Shown piece after piece: positions 7,686 through 42,746 of a stretch of DNA of 45,025 bases. Origin of the DNA: Candidatus Nanosalina sp. J07AB43. Its GTDB lineage: Archaea > Nanohalarchaeota > Nanosalinia > Nanosalinales > Nanosalinaceae. The position numbers were made by a program, and so were the translations under genes. Every line of letters starts with the position of its first letter. The stretch's first letter is position 1. Below the pieces are notes generated by a model. The model ran no database searches. It was not told the origin of the DNA and worked only from the letters and a program-made list of their open reading frames with translations. The stretch covers positions 697,591 to 742,615 of the forward strand of contig GL982576.1 in assembly GCA_000220375.1 (NCBI GenBank), read 5' to 3'.

Positions 7686-7724
7686 CGCTACTATAGACAT
7701 TGTGTGTATAGGGTTTTCCAAGTC

Positions 7725-8408
7725 ATGTCAGAAGATGAAGTACAGCTAGGCAACATGGATGACGATGACTATGAAGTTATTCCAATGGGGCCTGTAAGAA
7801 AATTGGAAAGAAGAGTTGAGAATCTTCAGGAACAACAGGAACAGAGCCAGGAATCAGGCGGAGGCACAGGAAATGAAGAACTGGTAAGAGATATAATGGA
7901 TATAATGAAGTCCAACCAGAAGATCGTCAACGACATGACGGAGTCCACACATGAGCTCAGAAACTCTGTTGAAGACCTGACCAACAAGATGGACTCTGTA
8001 ATCGACAACATGAACGAGTTCATGGATCTTCTAAACCAGGCCTCAGAGATGGATATGGAGGGAGAGGTCGCAGGAAACATAGAAACCAGGGTAGCAAATG
8101 CCATAGGAGACAAGATGGACGATATGGTTGACGAGGTCAGAAACTCCAACCAGAAAATTGCAGATAACCTTGAAGATCTCAACTCCCAGATGAGACAGAA
8201 TTACTACGCATCCCAACAAGCTGCGGATACTGCAACAGATCGTGGAAATAGTCAGCAACCGCAACAGACTCCAAATTCGAACCGTGGTAGAGGAGGAAAC
8301 AGGAGCCAAAGTAGCGGAGATGGTGAAGGTATGCCTCTAGGCTCTGACAACTCTGATAGAATGGAAAAATTGAAGAAGAGATTCGGCTCCATGAACAATA
8401 ATGAATAG
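7725..8408 (+). CDS. Coiled-coil protein with disordered tail, first gene of pilus operon
   Basis: A soluble, acidic protein of about 227 residues with no signal peptide or membrane helix. Residues 20-165 form long amphipathic helices, with repeats of the kind MKSNQKIVNDM and VRNSNQKIADNLEDL; the tail (about 170-215) is rich in Gln, Asn, Gly, Ser and Arg. The ATG at 7725 is preferred over an upstream GTG at 7704 because it starts the charged region. It overlaps the following pilin gene by 8 nt, so it is probably translated with it. By position and coiled-coil content it may be a cytoplasmic accessory protein of the filament, in the manner of archaellum FlaC/D/E, but I see no diagnostic motif for that family. 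Confidence 0.65.
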   Translation: MSEDEVQLGNMDDDDYEVIPMGPVRKLERRVENLQEQQEQSQESGGGTGNEELVRDIMDIMKSNQKIVNDMTESTHELRNSVEDLTNKMDSVIDNMNEFMDLLNQASEMDMEGEVAGNIETRVANAIGDKMDDMVDEVRNSNQKIADNLEDLNSQMRQNYYASQQAADTATDRGNSQQPQQTPNSNRGRGGNRSQSSGDGEGMPLGSDNSDRMEKLKKRFGSMNNNE

Positions 8409-8886
8409 GAAGGGTATAACACCTGTAATAGCTACCTCACTTCTTATACTGATTGCTGTGTCAGCTGTCGCGACTGCAGCGGTATTCTTCAGGAATACAA
8501 CCGATGATATTACAGGTTCAGTAAATGATCAGCTCTCCGAGCAGCAAAGAATAGAAGGAACCTCCATCAGCGTAGAAAGAGGATACAACAACTCCAATGG
8601 GAACATCAGCTTAAAGATAAGAAATACTGGAAGATATGTTATCTCTATTGAGGAAAACGATCAGAAATACTGGAGTTTATTTGCAGATGGAAGACCAAAC
8701 TCATTCAGCTATGCCTCCTACTCATCGCCGTCAACGGTTTCCCTCGATACAGGTGAGGTCATCACATTACAGACCGACGTTGGGTATCCCAGCTCAGGAA
8801 GCTTCACTAGGCTTGAACTACAGGGCAGATTTGAGATTGAGAGCGGTATAGTCTGCAGCAATAATGGGGGCTCACAGAACTGTTAG
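8401..8886 (+). CDS. Type IV pilin-like protein
   Basis: A 161-residue prepilin. The N terminus MNRKG followed by ITPVIATSLLILIAVS is a class III signal peptide of the haloarchaeal pilin type; cleavage is expected after the Gly. A single hydrophobic helix (about residues 6-30) would form the filament core. The rest is a Ser/Asn/Tyr-rich extracellular beta domain with two cysteines near the end that could pair. It overlaps the coiled-coil gene by 8 nt and is followed by a separate promoter and two more pilin genes. The frame is intact. Confidence 0.85.
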   Translation: MNRKGITPVIATSLLILIAVSAVATAAVFFRNTTDDITGSVNDQLSEQQRIEGTSISVERGYNNSNGNISLKIRNTGRYVISIEENDQKYWSLFADGRPNSFSYASYSSPSTVSLDTGEVITLQTDVGYPSSGSFTRLELQGRFEIESGIVCSNNGGSQNC

Positions 8887-8900
8887 AGCCAAGGTCCAAC

Positions 8901-8909
8901 TTATTTAAA
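8901..8909 (+). promoter_or_regulatory. Putative TATA element for the first tandem pilin
   Basis: TTATTTAAA is centred about 28 nt before ATG 8933, which suits a leaderless transcript. Confidence 0.45.
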
Positions 8910-8932
8910 CAAAACTACAGAAAGATGTATCC

Positions 8933-9435
8933 ATGAACATAGGTATTGACAGAAAGGGTATTACCCCTGTTATTGCTATTGTCCTACTCCTGATGGTTAC
9001 GGTTGGTGCGGTTGGAGTAGTATACACACAGTTCCAAAGCTTGTAGGAGACCCAACTGAACAAATAGATGATCAACAAAGAAATCAGAATACTGACATAA
9101 CCATAGTGAGAGGAAAGTCCAATGATACCAGCAATCCGCAGAGCGGTCAACTTATACTGGAGGTGCAGAACACTGGATCAGTAACCAGAAACACCACATC
9201 GTTCAGAGTAACTACAGATGACGCTTCCTTAATCCCTGGACAGGATGGAAGTCTCTCGTCAAACCCGAGCAACTCCACACTTTTGGATCCTGACGAGACT
9301 ATGGACTTCTACACAGGTGTTACGTTTCCAGGTCCGACAGACGGCGTAGTAGTAACACTTAATCTCAAGGGATCGGAGAAAACATTTAACATAGATTGCA
9401 GACCAGAGACGTCCACAACTGCGTTCTGCCAATAA
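8933..9435 (+). CDS. Type IV pilin, tandem copy 1 (frame broken near 9041)
   Basis: ATG 8933 opens a prepilin start (MNIGIDRKG, ITPVIAIVLLLMVTVG) that hits a TAG at 9044-9046 just after the hydrophobic helix. The mature domain continues in another frame (VGDPTEQIDDQQRN...) to 9435, ending TTAFCQ. The neighbouring copy reads AGCCTTGTAGG where this one has AGCTTGTAGG, so one C is missing. Restoring it gives about 167 residues: class III signal peptide, one helix (about 9-35) and an extracellular beta domain with N-glycosylation sequons (NDTS, NTTS). It is closely similar to the next gene, from a recent duplication. Error, true inactivation, or phase variation are all possible. Confidence 0.7.
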
Positions 9436-9456
9436 TTCACCACTTCTTTCCTCTTA

Positions 9457-9464
9457 TTTTTAAT
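9457..9464 (+). promoter_or_regulatory. Putative TATA element for the second tandem pilin
   Basis: TTTTTAAT is centred about 28 nt before the ATG at 9490. This supports 9490 as the real start even though that ATG is out of frame with the pilin body. Confidence 0.4.
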
Positions 9465-9489
9465 CACTCAAGTGCATCAATCATTACGT

Positions 9490-10001
9490 ATGGTACTAGG
9501 CGGAGAAAGGGTATTACCCCTGTTATTGCTATTGTCTTGCTTCTGATGGTCACAGTTGGTGCTGTTGGAGTTGTCTACTCGCAGTTCCAGAGCCTTGTAG
9601 GAGATCCAACTGAACAGATTGACAATCAGAGAAGGAATCAGAATACTGATGTAACTATAGTAAGAGGGAGATCTAATGATACTTCAGATCCTGACAGCGG
9701 CCAGCTGATCCTAGAGGTGCAGAACACTGGATCAGTCACTAGAAATACGTCGGCTTTCAGGCTCATTACTGATGATCCTTCCATGGTTCCAGGTGATGGA
9801 GGGATGGTTGATGGTTCTCTATCCACAAACCCTGAGAATTCCACACTGCTCGATCCAAAGGAGACTATGGATTTCTACACAGGTATCCCGTTCCCGGGTC
9901 CGACAGACGGTGTGGTGGTTACATTGAACTTGAAGGGATCTGTCAAGACATTCAATATAAATTGCAGACCGTTAACTTCTAGTACGGCTTTCTGCCAGTA
10001 G
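9490..10001 (+). CDS. Type IV pilin, tandem copy 2 (start region probably frame broken)
   Basis: The pilin body (RRKG, ITPVIAIVLLLMVTVG ... TTAFCQ-like end TSSTAFCQ) is open to 10001 and closely similar to the preceding copy. In its own frame no ATG, GTG or TTG lies near the signal peptide; the nearest, 9396, is inside the previous gene. The ATG at 9490 is placed correctly relative to the TATA element but reads MVLGGERVLP in the wrong frame. Adding one base in GGCGGAGA would give MVLGGRKGITP, matching copy 1 (MNIGIDRKGITP). So the start is most likely broken by one indel, or uses a non-standard codon. Restored length is about 170 residues. Confidence 0.68.
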
Positions 10002-10032
10002 ATTCAGGATTCTCCCAAACTTATGCGCTGGC

Positions 10033-10041
10033 TTTATATTT
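10033..10041 (+). promoter_or_regulatory. Putative TATA element for the 10064 gene
   Basis: TTTATATTT is centred about 27 nt before ATG 10064, supporting a leaderless start at that codon rather than at GTG 10049. Confidence 0.5.
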
Positions 10042-10063
10042 TAGCCAAGTGACTTTATTTAGT

Positions 10064-10723
10064 ATGAGAAAGGCTCAGGTTGGAGCGATCACCGCTGTAC
10101 TCCTGACCGGTATTACTGTAGGTGTAGCTTCTGTCGTTTATGTCTGGGGTCAGCCAATCCTAGACAAGAGGGATGCAGGCGATCAGCTGGATGAGGTTGA
10201 AGGCCTTGTACTTGATATACAGAGTGAGGTTAACCGTGTTTCCCAGGCTGGAACAGGAGCCACGAGCAGTATACCAGTCCAGATTGAGTCAGATGAGTAT
10301 TCAGTCAATATTGTGGAGTTGAATGCCTCAAGTGATTATATTGATGTAGTGGTTGAGGGAGGAGAGTTTCCATATCCTGAAGGGAGCTGGACCTTGTTGA
10401 GCGGTGAAGGAATGAGAAATCTCTCTATTTCAGGAGGTGACTACGTGCTTGAGGGACAGGATTCTGGTTCTGTGATCCTAGCAAGACCTGAGTCAGGTAT
10501 TACAACTTACAGAATCGAGTTTAGAAACGTCTTTTCGGATGGAGATGAAGTTCCTCTTGAGAAAACTGATCTAATCTCAACAGGAAGCACTGTGACGGGC
10601 TCAGGAAGCATATACTTAGAGAATGCAGGCACACAGGTTAACAGAGGCAGTAGTGGCTTAACTGTCTCTTCCGGTCAAACCTTGGCCAGAGAGCTTTCAA
10701 AGATAGAGGCTGAGATGAGATGA
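10064..10723 (+). CDS. Pilin-like protein with class III signal peptide
   Basis: About 219 residues starting MRKAQVGAITAVLLTGITVG: a short basic leader, then a hydrophobic helix to about residue 32 (ending VVYVWG). A region of about 45 helical residues follows, then an all-beta, Ser/Gly-rich outer domain. The length and the QPILDKRDAGDQLDEVEGL stalk suggest a minor pilin rather than the main subunit. The next gene starts inside its stop codon (ATGA overlap). It probably begins the promoter unit that runs through the ATPase and platform genes. Confidence 0.75.
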   Translation: MRKAQVGAITAVLLTGITVGVASVVYVWGQPILDKRDAGDQLDEVEGLVLDIQSEVNRVSQAGTGATSSIPVQIESDEYSVNIVELNASSDYIDVVVEGGEFPYPEGSWTLLSGEGMRNLSISGGDYVLEGQDSGSVILARPESGITTYRIEFRNVFSDGDEVPLEKTDLISTGSTVTGSGSIYLENAGTQVNRGSSGLTVSSGQTLARELSKIEAEMR

Positions 10724-11133
10724 GTTCAGTTAGAAAAGGACAATACATGGCGATCGAAGCTGTACTGTCTCTCGGACTTAGTCTTATTGTAGCCGTCGCA
10801 GCTATAGGTGTTTTTAATAACTACAGAGGTAGTGTATTTGACGCTATTGGAGACCGAAACGTGGAAATTACTTCCTCCAGAGTTGTTTCAGCAATGTATA
10901 ACTTGGGCCATATGGGAGATGGAAGCTCGATAACTGTTGAGGTACCTCAGACCGGCTCCAGGACATATGATATAGCGGTTACAGCTGACAACTTGGAGAT
11001 CTCCTCAGGAAGTTCATCTTACACTTACTCTCTGGACAGCATAACGTGGACATCTAACATTGAGGGATCGGCTCAGGGAGACGAAATAGCTCTTGTTCGT
11101 GTAAACAATGGAGTAGAGGTGAGGTCTGACTGA
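10720..11133 (+). CDS. Small pilin-like protein
   Basis: 137 residues. MSSVRKG precedes QYMAIEAVLSLGLSLIVAVA, a class III signal peptide with the Q-x-x-x-E spacing of the archaeal QxSxExxxL group. One N-terminal helix (about 8-32) and a small Ser/Thr-rich beta domain follow. It overlaps the genes on both sides (4 nt upstream, 1 nt downstream with the ATPase), so it is translationally coupled to the assembly machinery. Probably a minor pilin or an archaellum FlaF/FlaG-like stator-type protein; the sequence does not decide. Confidence 0.75.
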   Translation: MSSVRKGQYMAIEAVLSLGLSLIVAVAAIGVFNNYRGSVFDAIGDRNVEITSSRVVSAMYNLGHMGDGSSITVEVPQTGSRTYDIAVTADNLEISSGSSSYTYSLDSITWTSNIEGSAQGDEIALVRVNNGVEVRSD

Positions 11134-12842
11134 TGTCTCCGCCTTTGAACAATTTGGTAGGAAAGATGCGTAAGATGAAGCATCCGGAGCTGTTTGAGGA
11201 CGAGGAAGAAGATCAGGAAGAGGATTTAGGTCCGGGTGTTGAGTTACCTACTCCCGGAGAGTTTACTGAAGAGGTGGTTGAGGAGGCGGAAGAGGAAGAA
11301 GATCTAACGGACGTTGATATATCTTATCCATTGGTCCCGGAAGATCCTGATGAAGGTGAGACTGTCTATGCATGGGCACATATCACTTGGAATGACGAGG
11401 AGGGAGAGCTTGTCTATAGGATAGTTGAGCCTGAGCTTGGTGAAGACATGAAGGAGACATACAGCAGAATCGTAGAGATCATGGAGAGAAGCTTTGATAT
11501 TAACTTCGATGAACTCGAAGCAGGTCAGGCAAAGGAGTACTTAGAGGACAAGATCGACATGATAGTTGATAAGTACAATATCAGTATTCCTGAGGAGAAG
11601 AGGGAGGTAATAAGGTATTATACTAAACGGGATTTTGCTGGCCTTGGTAAGCTTCAGCCTTTGATGAATGATACAGAGGTTGAGGATATTTCATGTGACG
11701 GATTAGGTGTTCCCATCTACGCGTATCATAGGAATCCTAGATTTGGATCCATCAAGACTAACCTAGAGTGGAATGATTCGGATCACCTTGACAGCTTTGT
11801 TATGAAGCTTGCTCAGCGATGTGGTAAGTCAATATCTGTCTCAAGCCCTCTGCTGGATGGTTCTCTACCTGATGGTTCTCGTGTACAGGCTACGTTAGCA
11901 ACAGATATTGCGAGACATGGATCCAACTTTACGATTAGAAGGTTTTCCGAGGATCCGTTGACACCTATCCATATGATGGACTACGAGACGGAAAACGCCA
12001 GAATGCTGGCGTATCTATGGATGATCGTGGAGCATGAGAAGTCCATGCTGGTCTCTGGAACCACAGGTGCCGGAAAAACATCACAGCTCAACTCAATGTC
12101 TCTATTTATCCGTCCGGAGAAGAAGATTGTTTCAATAGAGGATACACCTGAGTTGAGGTTGCCGCACGAACACTGGGTGCCGGAGGTTTCAAGATCAGGT
12201 TTTGGATCATCTGCAGGTGAAGGCGGAGAGGTTACTATGGACAATCTTCTCAAGGAGTCTTTGAGACAGCGACCTGAGTACATTATTGTTGGGGAGGTTA
12301 GAGGAGCCGAAGCATACATCCTTTTCCAGCAGATGGCCACAGGTCATACAGGTCTAAGTACCATCCACGCAGATTCCCTTGACATGCTTATGGACCGTTT
12401 AACCACTGAGCCCATCAATCTGTCACCTTCACTCATTGAGACCTTAGACCTTATCATGGTTATTGCACGTATCCGTAGAGGAGGTACTTACATCAGAAGG
12501 ATAATGGGTCTATACGAAATAAGAGGCTACGACAAGAGAAAAGGTATTGATGCTAATCAGGTTTTTGGCTGGAATCCGGATAACGATGAGTATGTTGTGA
12601 AGAATAATTCCATGATTCTGAAGGATATAGCTGATCAGGCGGGAAAGGAGTACAGCGAAATCAGGAAAGAGTTGAGAAACCGTCAACATGTCTTGAACTG
12701 GATGCAGGAGGAGCAAATAAAGAATTACAGGAAGGTGGGTGACATAATCTCACGTTACTACTCGGATCCGGAATCCATCTTGAAGAAGGTAGGGCAAACA
12801 TTTAATTCTGAACAGGCCGAAAAAGACACTGATGGATCTTGA
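11133..12842 (+). CDS. GspE/TadA/FlaI-type filament assembly ATPase
   Basis: A 569-residue cytoplasmic hexameric ATPase that powers pilus assembly. A very acidic N-terminal 100 residues precede the N2 domain. Walker A GTTGAGKT is at 309-316, the Asp box SIEDTPEL at 334-341, Walker B YIIVGEVRG at 383-391 and the His box GHTGLSTIHAD at 404-414; all catalytic residues are present. A C-terminal helical extension (about 500-569) follows. Start ATG 11133 shares its A with the upstream TGA. The next gene begins 11 nt before this one ends. Only one such ATPase lies in the locus, so there is no separate retraction ATPase. Confidence 0.93.
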   Translation: MSPPLNNLVGKMRKMKHPELFEDEEEDQEEDLGPGVELPTPGEFTEEVVEEAEEEEDLTDVDISYPLVPEDPDEGETVYAWAHITWNDEEGELVYRIVEPELGEDMKETYSRIVEIMERSFDINFDELEAGQAKEYLEDKIDMIVDKYNISIPEEKREVIRYYTKRDFAGLGKLQPLMNDTEVEDISCDGLGVPIYAYHRNPRFGSIKTNLEWNDSDHLDSFVMKLAQRCGKSISVSSPLLDGSLPDGSRVQATLATDIARHGSNFTIRRFSEDPLTPIHMMDYETENARMLAYLWMIVEHEKSMLVSGTTGAGKTSQLNSMSLFIRPEKKIVSIEDTPELRLPHEHWVPEVSRSGFGSSAGEGGEVTMDNLLKESLRQRPEYIIVGEVRGAEAYILFQQMATGHTGLSTIHADSLDMLMDRLTTEPINLSPSLIETLDLIMVIARIRRGGTYIRRIMGLYEIRGYDKRKGIDANQVFGWNPDNDEYVVKNNSMILKDIADQAGKEYSEIRKELRNRQHVLNWMQEEQIKNYRKVGDIISRYYSDPESILKKVGQTFNSEQAEKDTDGS

Positions 12843-13707
12843 GGACTACGCAGAATTCTGCTACGATCAGACCGGAAGCGTAGCTCTCAGAATAGTGCCG
12901 TACTTTCAAGACTACAAGATGCTGCTCACGCAGGCAAATATCGATATTTCCCTGCCGGAGTATCTATCTCTCGGAATCTTTACAACAGGACTGATTTCGG
13001 CCTTTGTATTCAGTATATTTGGCTTAATATTCTTTCTAAGTTCAGGTCTTACAGGCCTCTTAACGGCGTTTTTTATCACGTTATTTATCTCGATTATATC
13101 TGCGTCCTTGCTTTATTTCTATCCTAAGACATTGGTTAGCAGTAGGGCAACCGTGATACGTGATATGATGCCTTTTGCCACAATGTATCTCTCTACCCTT
13201 GCTGGTACAGGTAACTCTGTCTCTGAGATATTCACCAAGCTTGCCGACGTTGAAGAATATGACGAGGTTGCAACTGAGGCAGAAAAGATTTCTCGAGATA
13301 TCGAAACGTTAGGTATGGACGTCTCAGAGGCCCTTGAACGGGGCGCTGACCGAACCCCAAGCGAGGACCTTGAAGATCTGCTGAGAGGTCTTGAACACGT
13401 TATCACCACTGGAGGCTCTGTAAGAGAGTTCTTAAACCAGAGGTCTGATGCATTGATGGACGACTATCAGAGACGTATTGAGAAGTTTGCTGATCAGCTT
13501 GGGCTACTGGTTGAAATGTATATTACAGTTGTAATCGTTGGTTCAATTATATTTACAGCAATGAGTGCTATTATGAGCTCTTTTACGGGATTTGATCCTA
13601 CTATAATAGTGGCCATACAGGTTATACTTGTTTTTCTAGGCCTCCCAATCATTACAGGGATGTTTATCATCTTCATTAAAGGTATATCGCCAGGAGGTGT
13701 TATGTAG
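12832..13707 (+). CDS. GspF/TadB-TadC-type pilus platform membrane protein 1
   Basis: 291 residues with two N-terminal membrane segments (about 45-66 and 72-98), a cytoplasmic helical T2SSF domain with MPFATMYLSTLAGTGNSVSE and LEHVITTGGSVREFL, and two C-terminal segments (about 225-250 and 257-285). This is a single-domain GspF protein, about half the size of a typical FlaJ or haloarchaeal PilC, and pairs with the next gene as TadB/TadC do. It anchors the filament in the membrane and couples to the ATPase. Its start overlaps the ATPase gene by 11 nt. Confidence 0.88.
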   Translation: MDLEDYAEFCYDQTGSVALRIVPYFQDYKMLLTQANIDISLPEYLSLGIFTTGLISAFVFSIFGLIFFLSSGLTGLLTAFFITLFISIISASLLYFYPKTLVSSRATVIRDMMPFATMYLSTLAGTGNSVSEIFTKLADVEEYDEVATEAEKISRDIETLGMDVSEALERGADRTPSEDLEDLLRGLEHVITTGGSVREFLNQRSDALMDDYQRRIEKFADQLGLLVEMYITVVIVGSIIFTAMSAIMSSFTGFDPTIIVAIQVILVFLGLPIITGMFIIFIKGISPGGVM

Positions 13708-14751
13708 TGGTCAACTTCTTCAAGGAGGAGGATTATGAGCCAGGTTATTCGCTGAAAGATAAGATTGTATTTGGATCGGCTGGAGGCGCGGCTTTTGTAG
13801 CCATAATTGGGATAGTTATTTTACTGGTGGGGAGTCAGAGAATTGGAGGATTGGTTCTTCTATCTTCTATTCTTCTTGGTATTCTCCCATATGGAGTGTT
13901 TTCTTTCCTGAAGAACAGAAAAATCAGTAAGATTGAGAAGCAGTTTCCTGATTTCTTAAGTGATCTGGCAGAGTCTAAGAGAGGTGGTATGACCCTTTTG
14001 AAGGCATTTGAGTCAGCTAGAGAAAACGATTACGGTGAGCTCGATGCACAGATCGAGAGGATTTATCATGAGCTCAGTTGGGGTATCCCCTTTCCAGAGG
14101 TTATGCAAAGGTTCTCCAGAAGAATGAGCGACTCTGTCGTGATACAGGAGTCCGTATCAATTATTATTCAAAGCTTCAAATCCGGGGGCGATATTACAGG
14201 CACTATCTCTTCTGTAGCCGACGACTCTGCCAGGCTGAGAAAGGTAGTCAAAAACAAGAATGCACAGCTTCAACAGCAGCTCTTCATCATGTACGTTATT
14301 TTCTTTCTGTTTATAGGAATTACAATAGGGATCTACACGATGCTTGCACAGCTTCTAGGCCTTGGATCTACAGAGGATGGTGCGATCAGCGGTATAAGTG
14401 ACGTTATAGGAGGCAGTTCTGGAGGAGGCCCAACTAACTTCTGTAATGGAGATATTGCAGCTGCTCAGCCATTCTGTGTTACTTCAAAGATATTTGGCTT
14501 CGTTCCCGCAAACATTTCCAGTGGACAGGTATCGCTGTCTAGCGAGTACGCTGTCAATCACGCATATGGCAGAATGGCTTATTATAAGGCCTTACTCTTC
14601 GTGATGATGGTGGTTCAAGGTATACTAACCGCGCTTGTTGCTGGTCAGATCAAAGGAGGGCTCTCCAAGCGCAGGTATTAAACATGCAATAGTTATGCTT
14701 CCAATAGCATTTATTGCGTTCATCTCAATTGTAGGGAATGCGGGGATATAG
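13707..14751 (+). CDS. GspF/TadB-TadC-type pilus platform membrane protein 2 (frame broken near 14655)
   Basis: The second single-domain GspF protein, starting at GTG 13707 on the last base of the previous stop. It has membrane segments at about 28-48 and 52-70, a cytoplasmic T2SSF domain (FPDFLSDLAESKRGGMTLLKAF, IIIQSFKSGGDI), another segment at about 195-218, and a final pair. The frame stops at 14681 after GGLSKRRY, but the +1 frame carries a natural C terminus (EGSPSAGIKHAIVMLPIAF...ISIVGNAGI) ending in TAG at 14749-14751, directly abutting the next ATG. An extra G in AAAGGAGGG would explain the break. A large loop between the last segments (about 220-290, with three cysteines) is unusual for GspF and probably faces outward. 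Confidence 0.85.
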
Positions 14752-15615
14752 ATGAAATCTAAAGGACAAGTTACGATCGAGTATCTGCTCTCGACCTTGT
14801 TTGTAATCATAATGTTGTCCACTCTTCTATTACTGTCGGTTGACAGAGTCCCTGAGATAGATGAAGCCTCAAAGCCGGCAGAAGTTACCATGGAAGCTAG
14901 AAGAATCTCTTCCATGATGATTGCCTCTCCAGGCGGCCACTCATACGGCCTAGGAGGCTCCCAATGGGAGAAAAATAGTTCAACCCTTCAAAATATTGAT
15001 TCCGTAGGTTTTGCAACCGACTACCATGCTGTCGACAGGGATAAGGTTGAAAACCTCACATCTTACTCTCCTAGTGGGCTTAACTACTCGGTTTTCCGCA
15101 GCCTGACTAACATAGATAATCAGTACAGATTTCTGTTTACATACATGCCTGTAATACACACTCCTGAAAGATACCGGAGAAATAACCCTCCGGAAAATCC
15201 AAATATCACTGAGCCGCAATCATCAGATTATGATAGCTCCGGCAATACAGTAAGGTATGGTGACTTTACAATCGGAGGTGTAGAATACAATTTTATTGTT
15301 ACTTCTCACAACGATGTTTACGACACAGTATATAGGAACAGAAACAGCAATCGGAGATGGGACTTCAGGTCATCACCCAAGTTCGAGGTAGGCGAGGAAA
15401 TTAAACTTGACGGCAGAAACTTTACTCTAAGAACCATCCAGAATACAGAGAGAAAATCTGGCAGTTTTCTTATGGTTTCGCGCCAGTTCAAGGAGTTTGG
15501 ACCTTCGTTTGATGCAACATCATCTATACAGAAGCTGAACAGGTATGCAGCGCTCAACGAGACAGGCACAACCCTTCAACCTCTGAGGATCGAGGTGTTT
15601 GCATGGAGCAATTGA
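14752..15615 (+). CDS. Large pilin-like secreted protein, QxSxExxxL type
   Basis: 287 residues. MKSKG then QVTIEYLLSTLFVIIML is the class III signal peptide with the QxxxExxxL motif processed by EppA-type prepilin peptidases in other archaea. One helix (about 6-30) precedes a roughly 250-residue extracellular domain rich in Asn, Ser, Tyr and Arg, with several N-glycosylation sequons (NSS, NLT, NYS). It is much larger than a normal main pilin, so a minor or tip pilin is likely. It abuts the platform gene with no gap and overlaps the next gene by 13 nt. Confidence 0.78.
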   Translation: MKSKGQVTIEYLLSTLFVIIMLSTLLLLSVDRVPEIDEASKPAEVTMEARRISSMMIASPGGHSYGLGGSQWEKNSSTLQNIDSVGFATDYHAVDRDKVENLTSYSPSGLNYSVFRSLTNIDNQYRFLFTYMPVIHTPERYRRNNPPENPNITEPQSSDYDSSGNTVRYGDFTIGGVEYNFIVTSHNDVYDTVYRNRNSNRRWDFRSSPKFEVGEEIKLDGRNFTLRTIQNTERKSGSFLMVSRQFKEFGPSFDATSSIQKLNRYAALNETGTTLQPLRIEVFAWSN

Positions 15616-17330
15616 ATAGAAAAGGAATAGGCTATTCAATTGAGGCAATTCTTTCAGCTGTAATACTTTTCACTTTTGCCTTTGGAGCGGTAACTCCTCC
15701 TGAGACACAGGAGTTTTCACAGTTCCAGAACGAGATAGCTGCCAGAGATCTTACACATATGATCAAAAAGACAGGAGATTTGAATATTTTTCTCAGGAAC
15801 TCCAACACCGGCGGAGTCAGGTCGGAACTATCCTCTGTATCGTCAAAAAATCTCAAGGCGTCAGGCACAGTAAGCAACCTTCCTGTGGGTGAGACTCAGA
15901 TAGCCTTCCATACGATGCCTTCTGAAATACATGTAAACGGTACAGAGCCTGTGCAATCTGGCGATAGATGTGACGGTGACCTAACTTCTTTGGACGCCAG
16001 TTCGGAGGAACCTATTTTGAGGGCTGATGTTTCACAAAGTCTCGTTAACAGGCATACATCCTATCTGTATTTTGGTGACAATGATCCATTAAACCCCTCA
16101 GGTTATAATGGAAAGGAAGACTATGATACTGTTTGGGTTGATAATGGAACTAAGTGCGTTTTCTCTCCTTCTGAAGGGCCCTATGGGATTAATGACATAT
16201 TCCTGTGGGGTAACTCCTCAGATCCTAATTCCAGATACTATGAATTCAAGAATATTAACGCCTCAAAAGGACAGTTCACTGTGTACGAAGCTGACAACGC
16301 ATTTGACGTCAAAAAGATGATGAATAAAGATCTCAACGGCATAAACACAGACACTGTCGTCAATACTGTTAACTTCTCGTCACCTGATATATACGGATAT
16401 GATGTAATGGTTTTTCAGGAGAACGAAACTGTTCCTAGGTTTAATCCTTACGAAAGCTTGTTGAGTGATATGGCTTCAAACACGTCGATACTGCTTTTGA
16501 TGAATATGACTCAATCAGATGCACAAAACAGTTTCATCCGTGATCTGGGCTTCAAGTGGACGCCCATGGATTATAGCCCTGTGAGCAGTTACCGTGCGAC
16601 GTTTTCTACCTACGGGAACAGTGATAACATTGAAAGCTACTTTCTTGGTTTAGGAGGCGAGCCAAGAGATCTTTCCTTGAAGCCTGGAGGCCAGATAATA
16701 TCCAATCAAGGCTCCAGAGAAACATCTAGAGATGATATCCTCTACGCAAGAAATGTCAGGTATAGCTCCGGTGACCTGGACGGCGAGATCTCTCCCAGTT
16801 CTTCATGGTCTTCAACCTCTGGTCCAACATCCTGTACACATAATGAAGCAGATTTCTCCATCCCTGGTTCCTCATATTCATCTCAAAATGTGCCGGTGAA
16901 GAATATTGACGTTGAGGATGGGTGTGGGACCCGTGCTCTGAACATTGATTTTGATGATGACGGAGACTTTGAGACAGGGCCGGTATTAGAGGATGAAATT
17001 GTAGAAGTATTCGACAGAAGATACAGCCCTACCATTTCTGGTGCTAGCAGCGCTTCATTAGAGTTTGTAGGTAGTAAGAAAGTTGAGCTCATTAATCATA
17101 GAAAGGCTCTAGAGAATATCTCTGGCGCCAAGGCAGCTAGAATGGCTTATGAATCAGATTATGAAGAAGATGATCTCAAGATGGTGGCTTCTACCATCTA
17201 CTGGCTGCGTGATGATAATGTCAGGTTCAAGTCGACAGATCAAAAGTCATATACCGCGACAAAGATTGTTGGCGGAGTTGAGAACAAGATTTTCCTCCCT
17301 TACAGACTAGATTTGAGGTGGTCTAGGTGA
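15603..17330 (+). CDS. Very large pilin-like surface protein, candidate tip adhesin
   Basis: 575 residues with the leader MEQLNRKG and IGYSIEAILSAVILFTFAF, a class III signal peptide and single helix. The remaining 540 residues should be extracellular: cysteines in pairs (RCDGD, KCVF, SCTHN, GCGT), many Asn-x-Ser/Thr sequons, and an acidic NIDFDDDGDFETG stretch resembling a calcium-binding loop. The middle (about 210-370) has alternating beta/alpha character (DIYGYDVMVFQENE, TSILLLMNMTQSD). I know no family for it. Large pilin-like proteins that prime or cap type IV filaments often bind the target surface, so host attachment is a reasonable guess. Coupled to its neighbours by overlaps of 13 and 4 nt. 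Confidence 0.75.
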   Translation: MEQLNRKGIGYSIEAILSAVILFTFAFGAVTPPETQEFSQFQNEIAARDLTHMIKKTGDLNIFLRNSNTGGVRSELSSVSSKNLKASGTVSNLPVGETQIAFHTMPSEIHVNGTEPVQSGDRCDGDLTSLDASSEEPILRADVSQSLVNRHTSYLYFGDNDPLNPSGYNGKEDYDTVWVDNGTKCVFSPSEGPYGINDIFLWGNSSDPNSRYYEFKNINASKGQFTVYEADNAFDVKKMMNKDLNGINTDTVVNTVNFSSPDIYGYDVMVFQENETVPRFNPYESLLSDMASNTSILLLMNMTQSDAQNSFIRDLGFKWTPMDYSPVSSYRATFSTYGNSDNIESYFLGLGGEPRDLSLKPGGQIISNQGSRETSRDDILYARNVRYSSGDLDGEISPSSSWSSTSGPTSCTHNEADFSIPGSSYSSQNVPVKNIDVEDGCGTRALNIDFDDDGDFETGPVLEDEIVEVFDRRYSPTISGASSASLEFVGSKKVELINHRKALENISGAKAARMAYESDYEEDDLKMVASTIYWLRDDNVRFKSTDQKSYTATKIVGGVENKIFLPYRLDLRWSR

Positions 17331-17635
17331 AGGGCCAGCTTCTGTTGATATCTGCAGTACTTGTCAGTTTGATTATGCTGGCGGCAGGCTCGGCGGTCGA
17401 GAGCATGAGCGAGCAGGAGTATGATTTCATAGAGGAAGGGTATACTGCCGACATTATAGAGCAAGAGACTGAGTCGCTTGATAAAACTGTTCCAAAGAAC
17501 AGGGAAAATTATAGGAAGATGATAGGGTTTCTTACAGAGTATCAGCCCTCTGTCAGCTACGGCGACACAAATCAGTGTTACAACGTGACCTTACGCAGCG
17601 ATGACTCTGTGATTGATTTGAACTGTGTTGGATGA
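17327..17635 (+). CDS. Small pilin-like protein, last gene of pilus operon
   Basis: 102 residues from GTG 17327, overlapping the previous stop by 4 nt. MKG then QLLLISAVLVSLIMLAAGSA is a minimal class III leader and helix. An acidic helical stalk follows (EEGYTADIIEQETESL), with a short tail holding two cysteines (QCYNV and NCVG) that may pair. Probably a minor pilin. Its stop at 17633-17635 is directly followed by the stop of rfcL on the other strand. Confidence 0.7.
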   Translation: MKGQLLLISAVLVSLIMLAAGSAVESMSEQEYDFIEEGYTADIIEQETESLDKTVPKNRENYRKMIGFLTEYQPSVSYGDTNQCYNVTLRSDDSVIDLNCVG

Positions 17636-21632: not shown

Positions 21633-21795
21633 AGATACCATCTGGTGGAATAGACTTAAACTTGTTATGACATACCTCATACCCTAAGTATCTGAAAAGA
21701 GCACGTGTTGATATATTGCCAAATTGATTCCTCTATAGAACCCTCCAAGATTGAATCGAGTTATTCTCTTAAGGCTGATACAAGTAATCCCTAAT

Positions 21796-24484
21796 ATGGG
21801 AGAAATAAAATTTGCTGATAATGATGATGCTTCAGACGCTTTACCTGAAGGCTTTGAACCTTATGTCAAGGAATGGTTTAATTCCGAGTTCCCAGGCCTG
21901 AGTGATCCTCAGAGGTATGCTTTTGAATTAATTCACGAAGAGGAAAACTCTTTGATCTGTGCGCCCACTGGCTCGGGAAAGACGTTGAGCGCATTTATGT
22001 CGGCCTTGAACGAGCTCTTCAGGATGGGTGAGGAGGGCGAACTTGATGATGAGATCTATGTACTGTATATTTCTCCTCTCAGAGCCCTGTCAAATGATAT
22101 AGAGAGAAATCTTGAGGACCCTCTTCATGGCATAAGAGAGAAAGCAGAGGATATGGGTTATGATGTACCTGAGATTAGAAGTATGGTGCGTACAGGTGAT
22201 ACAACTGATGCGGAAAAGCGTGAGATGCGTGAAAACCCTCCACACATCATGATAACTACTCCCGAGTCTCTCGGAATCCTCCTTAACTCTCCAAAGTTCA
22301 AGGAAAACTTGAGGAATGTAAAGTATACTATCACGGATGAGATACACTCCCTGAGTGCAAACAAGAGAGGTGTTCATCTTTCTCTGTCTATGGAAAGGCT
22401 TGAGGACATGGTGAACGGTTCTCCAACAAGAATCGGCTTGAGTGCTACACAGGCTCCCATAGACGAGATCGCAAAGTATCTTACAGGCTACACTGCCGAC
22501 GAAGATACGGGTACAAAGCTGGATCAAAACGATGAAGAAGTTGTTTCAGCACCTATAGCCTCCAGGGAGGACTATTCTCCCAGAGACTGCACTATTGTGG
22601 ATGTCGCGGCGTCTAAGGAAATAGACCTTGAGACTGTATCACCTGTCAGAGATCTTATACATACACCTGCCGCTGAGATACAGGAGGCGATGTACGACAA
22701 GATACATAACCTGATACAAGACCATGATTCTACCATAATCTTTACCAACACCAGATCTGCTACAGAGAGGATAGTCAATAACCTGAAGGAGAGATTTCCT
22801 GATAAGTATGACGAGAATATTGGAGCCCATCACGGCTCAATGAGCAGAGATAAGCGTCTTGAAGTTGAGGAGAAGCTCAAGAAAGGGGAGATGAAGGTCG
22901 GCGTTACCTCAACGTCCCTGGAGCTAGGGGTCGATATAGGAAGTGTTGAACTGGTTCTGCAGCTAGGCTCTCCTAAAGGTGTTGCCAGAGGAATACAGAG
23001 AGTAGGCAGGTCAGGTCACCAGATAGGGGAGAAGGCAAAAGGGAAGATGATTGTTACAGACAGGGATGATGCATTGGAGTGCAGCGTTCTCTCCAAATGT
23101 GCTAAGGAAGATGATTTAGACAAGATTCAGATACCTCAGAACTCTTTGGATGTCCTTGGCTCAGCAGGTTGTAGGCATGGCATGTAACCATAAGTGGGAT
23201 ATTGATCATGCATTTAACGTCATCAGGAAGAGCTACAACTTTGTAGACCTTGAACTAGAGGACTTTGAGAATGTCCTGAAGTACTTGGGTGGAGAATATG
23301 AGCTTGAGGATCAGAATGTCTACCGGAAAATATGGATAGATCATGAAGACGGATTGTTTGGTCGGTCAGGGAAGATGACACGTGTAATCTACATGACCAA
23401 TATTGGTACTATACCAGATGAATCTGGCTACGAGGTAGTTACACGGGGAGATAAGAGCTACGTAGGGACTTTGGATGAAGAGTTCCTGGATAGGCTTACA
23501 AAGGGAGACATCTTTACCTTAGGAGGCTCTACGTATGAGTTTAAGTACGCCAAGGGAATGAAGGTTTTTGTTGATCCTCAGCCGCAGAAGAAGCCGACGG
23601 TCCCAAGCTGGTACTCACAGAGACTTCCTCTAAGCTATGATCTTGGTGTGAAGATCGGAAGATTTAGGCAGGAAGTAGAGGAGCAATTGGATCTTGGTGC
23701 CGGCGACAATGATATTATACAGTGGATTATGCACAATTATTATCTGGATGAGAATACTGCTGAGGCAATATTCAGGTATCTCAAGGAACAGTACCAGCTT
23801 ACAGGCGATGTCTCTAATCACTCTGATGTGACTGTTGAAAGATATATTGATGATGACAACAGACAAAACTTTATCTTCCAGACTATCTACGGCCGCAGAA
23901 CGCATGATGCGTTGTCAAGAATCCTTGCTCACCTTCTTCAGCAGAAGATCAACAAGAACATTGGAATGGTGATCGACGATAACGGATTTATCTTGGTTAC
24001 GCCCAGAAGACCTATAGATATTGAGGAGCTTCTGGAAGATCTTGTAAACTGCGATCTCGAGGAAGAGCTGAAAGAAGCTGTAGGTAAAACAGAGTTGATG
24101 AAGAGAAGGTTTAGGCATGTAGCTGGAAGGTCCCTTATGATACTTAGAAACTATCAGGGAAACTCAAAGACTGTTGGGCAGCAGCAGATGAAGGGACATT
24201 TCCTGATTTCCGCAATCAGAAACCAGTATGACAGAGACTTCCCAATGATAAAGGAGACTTACAGAGAGATAATGGAGGACGCTATGGATATTCAGCACAC
24301 AAAAGAGGTCGTTGATGAGATAGAAAATGGTGGCATAGAGATACAGCAGAGAAAAGCAGATGTTCCGTCACCTTTTAGCCACAACCTGCTGCTTCAGGAA
24401 TCAAGCGATGTGATAAAAATGGAGGACAAGAAAAAACGTCTCCAAGAACTCCATGACCAAGTAATGGAGAGGATAGAAGATTAA
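21796..24484 (+). CDS. lhr: Lhr-type DEAD/DEAH helicase (frame broken near 23157)
   Basis: A superfamily 2 helicase of about 896 residues, acting in DNA repair or RNA metabolism. Motif I APTGSGKT is at about 56-63, motif Ia ISPLRALSND at 92-101, motif II DEIH at 181-184, motif III SATQ soon after, and motif VI (QRVGRSGHQIG) near residue 420. The first frame stops at 23187 after VLGSAGCRHGM. Shifting by one base gives the expected PQNSLDVLAQQVVGMA junction and a continuous winged-helix and Lhr core C-terminal half to 24484. An extra G in CTTGGCT explains it. ATG 21796 is preferred over 21751 since CTTAAG is about 27 nt upstream. Confidence 0.88.
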
Positions 24485-40102: not shown

Positions 40103-40669
40103 ATGGAATCTGAAGATGTACTCATATCGGTTCATTCCCAATATGGATATGGTCATGGAGAGGGTAGAGACGAGATTATACATCGAACTGAGGAGTTTGA
40201 GGGACATACAATTCTCTTGAAAGACGACGACGCAGGTGAGGTCTATGGGGACGAAGATATGTACGACCTAGTAGTTGAGGACGATTTATATGGTAATCTT
40301 GACGAAGATCTTTCTAATGTTGTTAGACAGGCTTATGGAAATATTGAGATAATCGGTATTTACGGCTCTGAGTGTGTCGCAAACACAGCAGAGTCGATAG
40401 GTATAGAAGAAGTTACTATAAATCCTGATGCTTTAGTAGATCAGACGTTTGGAAGCGGAGATTATCTTGTCTCAGATCTCTTGGAAACCCGCGACCCAGA
40501 GATCATATCTAGATACGTTGAAAAGTTCAGGAATGCCGATACCGCGGGTAGAATCGAATTCAAAGACGGACTTTTGGATGACTACAACATTAGTTTGGAC
40601 GTTCCAGTGAATAGCAGTGAGGGCGTTGAAGCTGCAGATGAGGATGAGGGCGTTGAGATCCTTACTTGA
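40103..40669 (+). CDS. Hypothetical acidic protein, cysteine-hydrolase-like fold possible
   Basis: 188 very acidic residues, soluble. SQYGYGHGEGRDEI near the N terminus, then alternating beta/alpha elements with IEIIGIYGSECVANTAESIG. The last resembles the catalytic-Cys region of isochorismatase-like cysteine hydrolases, but the other catalytic residues are not clear, so I assign no activity. The C-terminal 20 residues are disordered (EGVEAADEDEGVE). It follows a 40-residue ORF by one base and overlaps the end of metG by 8 nt tail to tail. Confidence 0.65.
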   Translation: MESEDVLISVHSQYGYGHGEGRDEIIHRTEEFEGHTILLKDDDAGEVYGDEDMYDLVVEDDLYGNLDEDLSNVVRQAYGNIEIIGIYGSECVANTAESIGIEEVTINPDALVDQTFGSGDYLVSDLLETRDPEIISRYVEKFRNADTAGRIEFKDGLLDDYNISLDVPVNSSEGVEAADEDEGVEILT

Positions 40670-42746
40670 TAGCAGAACCTTCTTCTACATCCTTATCTGA
40701 TTGTAACAATGAAACAGCTTCCCCATTCTCCGATTCTGCAGCTAGCATCATGCACTCTGATTTTTCTCCTCGCAGCTTGGTTGGTTCAAGGTTTGCAAGT
40801 ACAACTACGTCTTTACCCTCCAGATCTTCTGGTTCATAGAAGTTCTTGAGTCCGGCACAGGTCTGCAGTGTGGCCTCACCTACATCTACCTGTATTTTAT
40901 AGAGTTTATCTGCGTTTGGATGCTCTTCTACTTTCTGCACTTTTCCGGTTCTTATGTCCATCTCTTGGAAGTCTTCAAAGCTGACAGTGTCTTTGTTGAA
41001 CTCGTTTTCCATATTATCTTTCTCCTCTTCTGTCTCGTCTCGATGTTCTGACGTATCGATTTTTTCGAATAGTATCTCCCGTTCTCCAAGCTCATGGCCC
41101 GGTTCTAGGCCTCCTATGAGAGGATCCATTAGTTCATCAACTCCTGCAGTGGAGTGTATACTGATGTTCAGCATATCGGCTATCTTTTCCGACGCTTCCG
41201 GTGTAAATGGGTATAGTGTGGCTGCCAGTGCACGGATTATTTGTAGTGACACGTGTATTGTTTCTTTTCTTATGTCTTCGTTGTTCCATGGTTCCTGTTC
41301 GCTGAGGTATCTGTCTCCAATTCTTGCCAGTTCTACAGCGTTATCAAGAGCCTCCTGTATGTTCTTGTTTTCAAAGCTTTCTCTGTAGTCCTCAACTGCT
41401 TTTTCAGCCTCCATCAGTACTTGCTCGTCTTTTTTCTTTAGTTCGCCTACAGGCACTTTTGAGTTGTGCCAGTCCTCTGCTAGAGTTAGGTGCGGTTGAC
41501 AAAGTTGCCTACGGTGTCGTTGAGGACGTTGTTTACCTCTGACTCGAAGTCTTTCCATGAAAAGTTTGTATCATGGTTTGTTGGAAGCATCTTTGCTATG
41601 TAGAATCTCCAGTAGTCTGCTGGGTAATGTTTTACTGCCTCATCTATGAATACGCCTCTATTTCTTGATTTTGAGAAAGCTCCTTCCTCCCACATCAGGT
41701 ACTGCTGTATAAATTCGTAGCTTGGGAGGCTGTACTCTATGTCTTCATTTGATGCTCCTAGAAGCATCGTAGGCCAAATCACAGTATGGAATATTGTATT
41801 ATCTTTTCCTATGGAGTAGACTGTCTCGGCATCTTGATTCCAGTGTTTTTTCCATTTGTCTTTGTCGTCATATAGTTCTCTTGTAAATCCTATGTAGCCT
41901 ATTGGGGCGTCAAACCAGACGTACAGCACTTTGTTATCGTATTTTTCCGCGTCTAGCTTGTCAACTTCGAGGTTTTCTTCTTCGATTCTCTGGTTCACTC
42001 TTTCTACAGGTATTTCAAATCCCCAGTTCTGGTCACGTGTGATTGACCTGTCCTCTGCTTCATCTATATCATGTAGCACTTGTTCTTTCATGTTTTCAGG
42101 TACAGGTTCTTCGTTTTCAACCCAGTCCTTGAGCTCGTCTTTGTATGCTGTAAGGTCTAGGAACAGGTGATCTGTATCCCTGAACTCGATGTTGTTTTCT
42201 CCACAGATCTGGCATTCCAGGTTCTTAATTTCTGATGGCTGCACAAGCTTTCCGCAGTCATCGCATTGATCTCCCCGTGCAAGACCACCACAGTGAGGGC
42301 ATTCACCTTCAACATATCTGTCGGGTAGAAACCTCTCATCGTTTATGCAGTATGCCATGTTCTGTGTTTTTTCATGTATCAATCCAGTGCAGTAAAGCTC
42401 CTCAAACATGTCATGTGTCTGTTTCCTGTTGTAGTCCGAATGTGTATCTGAGAAGATCGAGAAATCAACATTGAGGCTTTCATACGCTTCCTTCACTTTC
42501 TTGTTTTGTTTATCTTTAATTTCACGTGGATCTTTGTCTCTCTCCATGGCCTCTAGTTCTAGAGGCGTACCATGTACATCTCCTCCGCATACAAACTCAT
42601 TTTCTTTACCTACTAGGTCTAGATACCTGTGGTATAGTTCTGCTGGTAGTACGCTACCTGCAAAGTTTCCTAGATGCGGTACACCATGCACATACGGCAG
42701 TGCTGACGTAACTGTAATTTTATCCTGTTTAGAGATAAGTATCCAC
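40662..42746 (-). CDS. metG: Methionyl-tRNA synthetase with C-terminal tRNA-binding domain (frame broken twice)
   Basis: A class I synthetase. The conserved start KITVTSALPYVHGVPHLGN lies upstream of 42691, so translation must begin earlier; GTG 42746 is 28 nt from a CTTATAAG box and would read MDTYL then join the frame if one T near 42731 is extra. HIGH is HLGN; the KMSKS region is FSKSRNRG. Zinc knuckles CPHCGG, CDDCG and CQICG are present. The first half stops at 41486 after GNFVNRT, and the other frame continues LTLAEDWHNSKVPVG: a missing C in ACCTA. The tail is an EMAP/Trbp111-like OB fold (RTGKVQKVEEHPNADKLYKI). Restored length is about 690 residues. Confidence 0.88.

Follow-up and report, generated by a model that had tools for sequence, protein, structure and literature searches.

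What kind of surface filament does a nanohaloarchaeon build, and could such a filament be the means of holding on to its host? A pilus locus in the genome of Candidatus Nanosalina sp. J07AB43 raises this question. The stretch of DNA analysed here, referred to as the window, comprises 45,025 nucleotides (NCBI GenBank assembly GCA_000220375.1, contig GL982576.1, positions 697,591 to 742,615) of a genome of 1,227,157 bases in 7 contigs. The assembly is a composite of Lake Tyrrell metagenomes and is ~83% complete (PMC3630111). On the forward strand of the window, positions 7704–17635 form a single operon-like run of genes encoding one ATPase, two single-domain GspF proteins and a set of class III prepilins. 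A preliminary description, made from the letters of the DNA, had assigned this run to the Tad/Epd branch of type IV filaments. The locus is very probably a complete operon for assembling type IV pili, of a DPANN branch whose sister group is the 'clade 2' (GspE2/PilB-type) pili of Euryarchaeota. The operon is real and ancient, and it belongs to a locus type that has already been described rather than to a new kind of system.

Much of the architecture given in the preliminary description was confirmed. Matches to PF00437 and PF00482 bear out one ATPase and two separate single-domain GspF proteins, the same-strand reading frames are packed and overlap across the locus, and neither a prepilin peptidase nor a KaiC/FlaH gene lies within it. 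The operon starts earlier than had been proposed, with a gene for a coiled-coil protein at 7704.

Phylogenetic placement of the ATPase

The placement of the locus comes from its ATPase, for which a maximum likelihood tree of 65 rows was built and alternative groupings were compared by the approximately unbiased (AU) test. The window ATPase falls within a DPANN clade (support 100/99), the sister of which is the clade holding A. fulgidus GspE2 (99/92). FlaI forms a separate single clade (100/100) that does not include the window ATPase. Three ATPases taken as Epd-type branch outside the DPANN, GspE2 and FlaI clades, and CpaF of the Tad systems is a distant outgroup. Further, the protein carries a PilB3_C domain (Table 1), and among PDB structures A. 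fulgidus GspE2 (2oap, 373 bits) ranks ahead of FlaI (4ii7, 255 bits) and CpaF (154 bits).

The preliminary description had taken separate GspF proteins and QVTIEYLL-type leaders as markers of the Tad/Epd branch. Two GspF genes are not diagnostic of that branch, because many clade 2 euryarchaeal pilus loci carry two tadC genes (PMC4858521), and the protein with the QVTIEYLL leader is a putative minor pilin of the DUF7287 family. Leaders of the QxSxExxxL type, reported in the plural, were found in one locus protein only (14752).

Prepilins

One simple rule recognises class III leaders in 6 of the 12 open reading frames (ORFs) of the locus and in 0 of the 33 other window ORFs of at least 95 amino acids (aa). 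Disturbed frames hide both copies of the p3 prepilin from the rule, but RKGITPVIA can be seen by eye in each, giving eight leaders in total. The earlier count of eight leader proteins thereby stands for the leaders and not for eight distinct pilins: there are seven prepilin families and one duplicate, the gene at 8933 being a frame-broken tandem copy of the 9490 gene.

Weak matches connect p1 and p3 to archaellin and archaeal pilin models as well as to ArlF/ArlG stator models, and a C-terminal cysteine pair of p1 is invariant in the ortholog alignment (set A3). The structure predicted for p3 (predicted local distance difference test score, pLDDT, 83) combines a helix with a beta sandwich. Among PDB entries it is matched best by FlaG (5tuh, E = 8.8e-4), and FlaF is also among the matches. 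Pilin families held in common with clade 2 pili emerge through orthologs rather than from the window proteins alone: DUF7289 (PF23960) is matched by 11 of 16 p4 orthologs (best E = 1.2e-6), DUF7266 (PF23928) by 12 of 14 p5 orthologs and DUF7287 (PF23958) by 8 of 15 p6 orthologs (best E = 9.2e-6). DUF7289 matches were also found in Haloferax volcanii and Methanosarcina acetivorans, controls searched for this family only, and DUF7289 lies 2–3 kb from clade 2 ATPases in two further genomes (G034 and G096).

In copy 1 of p3 (8933) the reading frame breaks off after ...VYTQFQSL and continues with a shift of one base, staying open to a natural stop, while the body of copy 2 (9490) is open. Same-genus relatives have one p3; two are present in one other genus of the family and in several genomes elsewhere in the order.

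Alternative readings of the locus

Membership of the Tad/Epd branch would account for the two separate GspF proteins and the single QxSxE-like leader, and the Epd pili of methanogens and thermococci (Makarova clade 1) share with the window locus an ATPase, two GspF genes and several pilins. This reading is nevertheless extremely improbable, as the AU test rejects a grouping of the window ATPase with the Epd-type ATPases (p = 2.6e-38), CpaF is distant, and the locus has no peptidase, of the EppA type or otherwise. The Epd-type label of the three reference ATPases rests on locus content; the best case is L198, a locus with an A24/Arc_PepC peptidase and short GQGGIEYLLLIAALIGLG pilins, and its ATPase, too, branches outside. 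An archaellum that has diverged or degenerated, with FlaJ in two parts and FlaH missing, would fit other observations: in NCBIfam the ATPase is matched best by FlaI (396–399 bits), platform proteins 1 and 2 align with the N-terminal and C-terminal halves of FlaJ, respectively, and the p3 model resembles FlaG and FlaF. However, the FlaI match stays below the cut-off of 550 bits; in a search of 100 related genomes, ATPases above this cut-off score 585–843 (fused frames aside), and none of them is from Nanohaloarchaeota. Further, in the FlaI loci examined FlaJ is a single two-domain protein and a FlaH-like gene is present, whereas in J07AB43 no KaiC/FlaH gene lies near the locus and all three KaiC genes are on contig C5. 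Grouping with FlaI was rejected more weakly than grouping with Epd (p = 0.024), an outcome that depends on model and sampling. What the locus shares with archaella is distant FlaI/FlaJ homology and a FlaF/FlaG-like pilin fold, and an archaellum is very unlikely, in agreement with the earlier reading of a DPANN pilus locus that is not an archaellum.

Two further readings concern what the operon does and whether it still works. Seven prepilin families, several of them large, resemble the multi-minor-pilin machines, and DNA uptake by pili has been proposed for the related Nucleotidisoterales (PMC9563170), which would suit a pseudopilus for secretion or DNA uptake in place of a pilus for adhesion. 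Such a use is unlikely, given that none of the locus genes was recognised as serving competence or as encoding a secretion substrate, and that p1 and p3 resemble filament subunits. The frame break of copy 1 and the missing in-frame start of copy 2 could alternatively mean that the pilin set is decaying, with both p3 copies pseudogenes and the system being lost in this strain. This is decidedly improbable: dN/dS between the copies is ~0.07 over 131 codons (imprecise, as dS is near saturation), and single intact p3 genes are present in relatives. Two other genes of the window, for methionyl-tRNA synthetase (40665–42688, reverse strand) and Lhr helicase (21751–24481, forward strand), are likewise each broken into a pair of overlapping ORFs, which suggests indels in the draft, a composite metagenome assembly (PMC3630111). 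On the dN/dS value and the other split genes, two dead p3 genes were rejected; the faults in p3 are probably mostly draft indels, and the organism would then have two p3 genes.

Some observations weigh against a clade 2-related adhesive pilus. The branch that joins the DPANN clade to the GspE2-type ATPases has only moderate support (91/87), and both p3 copies are frame-broken as sequenced. The window p4 and p6 proteins stay below the Pfam thresholds of their families, which their orthologs reach, p7 matches no family and no fold (its predicted model being of low confidence, pLDDT 55), and p8 has no assigned fold. Lastly, what the analysis shows is gene content, homology, phylogenetic placement, conservation and the peptidase; the making of a filament, adhesion and a host target are predicted.

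Table 1. Genes of the pilus operon, with positions in the window
Feature	Positions	Strand	Remarks
Coiled-coil protein (234 aa) at the head of the operon	7704..8408	+	No transmembrane segment or signal peptide; N-terminal motif conserved among relatives; counterpart of the Locus 1 coiled-coil protein (CCP) gene (PMC11291902)
Prepilin p1, KGITPVIA leader, archaellin/FlaF-G-like	8401..8886	+	TIGR02537 30.4 bits (cut-off 20); PF01917 weak
Tandem copy of p3 prepilin, frame broken ~9040	8933..9435	+	Downstream frame open and, compared with copy 2, under purifying selection
Prepilin p3, putative major pilin, leader RRKGITPVIAIVLLL	9490..10001	+	TIGR02537 22.5 bits (cut-off 20); no in-frame ATG/GTG/TTG near leader
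Prepilin p4, DUF7289 family	10064..10723	+	Orthologs match PF23960; window protein below threshold
Prepilin p5, DUF7266 family	10720..11133	+	PF23928 27.4 bits (cut-off 27.6); 12/14 orthologs
Type IV filament assembly ATPase	11133..12842	+	PF00437 114 bits; PF23989 PilB3_C 36.7 bits (cut-off 27)
GspF/TadC-like platform protein 1	12832..13707	+	PF00482 62.1 bits; NF004704 positions 5-248
GspF/TadC-like platform protein 2	13707..14681	+	PF00482 63 bits; NF004705 positions 197-392, NF004703 positions 238-504
Prepilin p6, KGQVTIEYLL leader, DUF7287 family	14752..15615	+	Orthologs match PF23958
Large prepilin p7, 575 aa, possible tip/minor component	15603..17330	+	Class III leader; conserved orthologs
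Small prepilin p8, 102 aa	17327..17635	+	Class III leader; orthologs among relatives

Prepilin peptidase and other components in the genome

Searches of the J07AB43 genome with PF06847 and PF01478 gave no peptidase match. A search with the A24 protein of a relative (G022), which sits between two pilus loci and itself matches PF01478 with 38 bits (cut-off 26.5), led to a 271-aa gene outside the locus, at C7:414,299-415,114, the only recognised A24 peptidase of the genome. As only the relative's protein exposed this gene, a negative Pfam search is no proof of absence. Peptidase matches are present in 27 of the 28 genomes of the order, J07AB43 included, with only short and weak ones in G012 and G017, and in several genomes (for example G003, G005, G006, G007, G009, G014, G018 and G022) only a few kb separate the gene from a second pilus ATPase. 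Across 22 aligned sequences, one of which is an Epd-type peptidase, neither catalytic aspartate column varies: Asp21 and the Gly-Gly-x-Asp84 motif occur in every one. As in clade 2 systems, the genome also encodes a stand-alone MinD/FleN-family ATPase (C5:84873-85595; TIGR01969 243 bits, cut-off 201.75), which would be an expected partner of the pilus.

Contig C3 harbours a second pilus system at ~47.4–52.1 kb (L054 7392-12113), with a more divergent ATPase, two GspF genes, a coiled-coil gene and a short KGQSAIEYL pilin. The first of the GspF genes, GspF1, is broken into two ORFs (126 and 152 aa), and at L054 2973-4705 small prepilins form a divergent run. By gene content, this second system corresponds to Locus 2 of Hamm et al. 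(PMC11291902). A third class of ATPase, 41–43% identical to that of the window, was observed in relatives (L057, L058, L060 and L206) with a KaiC gene adjoining and, in three of the four loci, archaellin-like pilins nearby. This KaiC-linked class was not found in J07AB43, and there is no ATPase around the KaiC genes of contig C5.

The coiled-coil protein

The protein encoded by the first gene of the operon shows no obvious signal peptide or membrane segment by hydropathy, the maximum over 19 residues being -0.02 and at most 0.58 across 17 orthologs. The missing export signal favours a cytoplasmic place, where the protein would most likely act as a partner of the platform or of the ATPase. Hamm et al. 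(2024) liken the coiled-coil proteins to a viral attachment protein (PMC11291902); a protein without an export signal sits badly with such a role at the surface, non-classical export being a possible way out. By analogy, a more specific but rather unlikely proposal is that of a cytoplasmic scaffold comparable to archaellum FlaC/D/E or FlaX, which would act on the pilus platform. Were this true, the likening to viral attachment proteins would be wrong and, together with the FlaF/FlaG-like pilins, the DPANN machine would be a pilus with archaellum-like parts. The coiled-coil proteins of Locus 2 (L059 6624-7706 and L063 6803-8008) have a weak N-terminal helix-turn-helix match (PF13384, E ~1e-4, under cut-off), an odd start for a surface attachment protein.

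Conservation and relation to known systems

The window-type ATPase is present in 28 of 28 genomes of the order, its own included. Gene order is collinear in all 18 relatives fetched, with 3 to 11 elements recognised, a count that left out two scattered pieces from Nanosalinarum J07AB56, a close relative of the same family; the same order recurs in Aenigmatarchaeota and other DPANN. In J07AB56 (L048 and L049) several partial ATPase and GspF copies accompany the scattered locus, reflecting rearrangement or misassembly. Single open frames of 1048–1142 aa with two tandem ATPase matches were seen in L213 (4204-7350), G028:C81, G070:C7 and G090:C2. ATPase-like open frames of ~1150–1170 aa occur at G024:C28:6641-9724 and G056:C1:1785056-1786069, and the match in G024 consists of two parts with a break close to Walker A, perhaps due to an intein.

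Two type IV pilus loci conserved among cluster 2 DPANN were described by Hamm et al. (2024), who suggested that they act in host interaction and provided proteome support for Locus 1 and Locus 2 proteins of Ca. Nha. antarcticus (PMC11291902). Their Locus 1, from cluster 2 DPANN and Undinarchaeota, combines GatE, a chaperonin, a coiled-coil protein, FlaF/PilA-like pilins, a CpaF-type ATPase and TadC proteins with a P-loop NTPase nearby (PMC11291902), and this neighbourhood is the same across Nanohaloarchaeota. The window likewise has the coiled-coil protein, the ATPase, TadC proteins and the FlaF/PilA-like pilins, with a P-loop NTPase nearby and a chaperonin and GatE upstream; downstream, the opposite strand carries genes for replication factor C (these neighbours were identified by sequence similarity). 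An earlier study had reported FlaI, FlaJ and archaellin in the Ca. Nha. antarcticus proteome and doubted an archaellum (Hamm et al. 2019, PMC6642349). Unlike the main text of the 2024 study, which makes no filament-clade assignment, the present analysis assigns the clade.

With the clade 2 pili (A. fulgidus GspE2; H. volcanii PilB3/PilB4/PilB5; PMC4858521, PMC6491452), the window system shares a sister ATPase, PilB3_C, one or two GspF genes, a DUF7289-family pilin (Haloferax, Methanosarcina) and an A24 peptidase elsewhere in the genome. It differs from them in forming a separate DPANN clade, in its leading coiled-coil gene, in the archaellin/FlaF-like p1 and p3, and in the large p7.

Proposed assembly and significance

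In the assembly that we propose, the prepilins would be cleaved by the A24 peptidase encoded elsewhere in the genome, and a hexameric ATPase would drive a platform of the two single-domain GspF proteins. The platform would polymerise mainly the archaellin/FlaF-like p3 as putative major pilin, with p1 and p4–p8 as candidate minor, tip or base pilins. The most likely use of the filament would be adhesion, probably to a haloarchaeal host, because the locus is present in every sampled Nanohaloarchaeota genome, all taken as host-dependent. Host contact is the published hypothesis for the Locus 1 type (PMC11291902) and is plausible for the window locus.

DPANN archaea are assumed to depend on contact with a host cell, for which surface filaments are leading candidates. 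The analysis assigns a machine shared by nearly all nanohaloarchaea to a defined filament clade, identifies its peptidase and casts doubt on a surface role for its coiled-coil protein, which makes the published idea easier to test in cultivated nanohaloarchaea.

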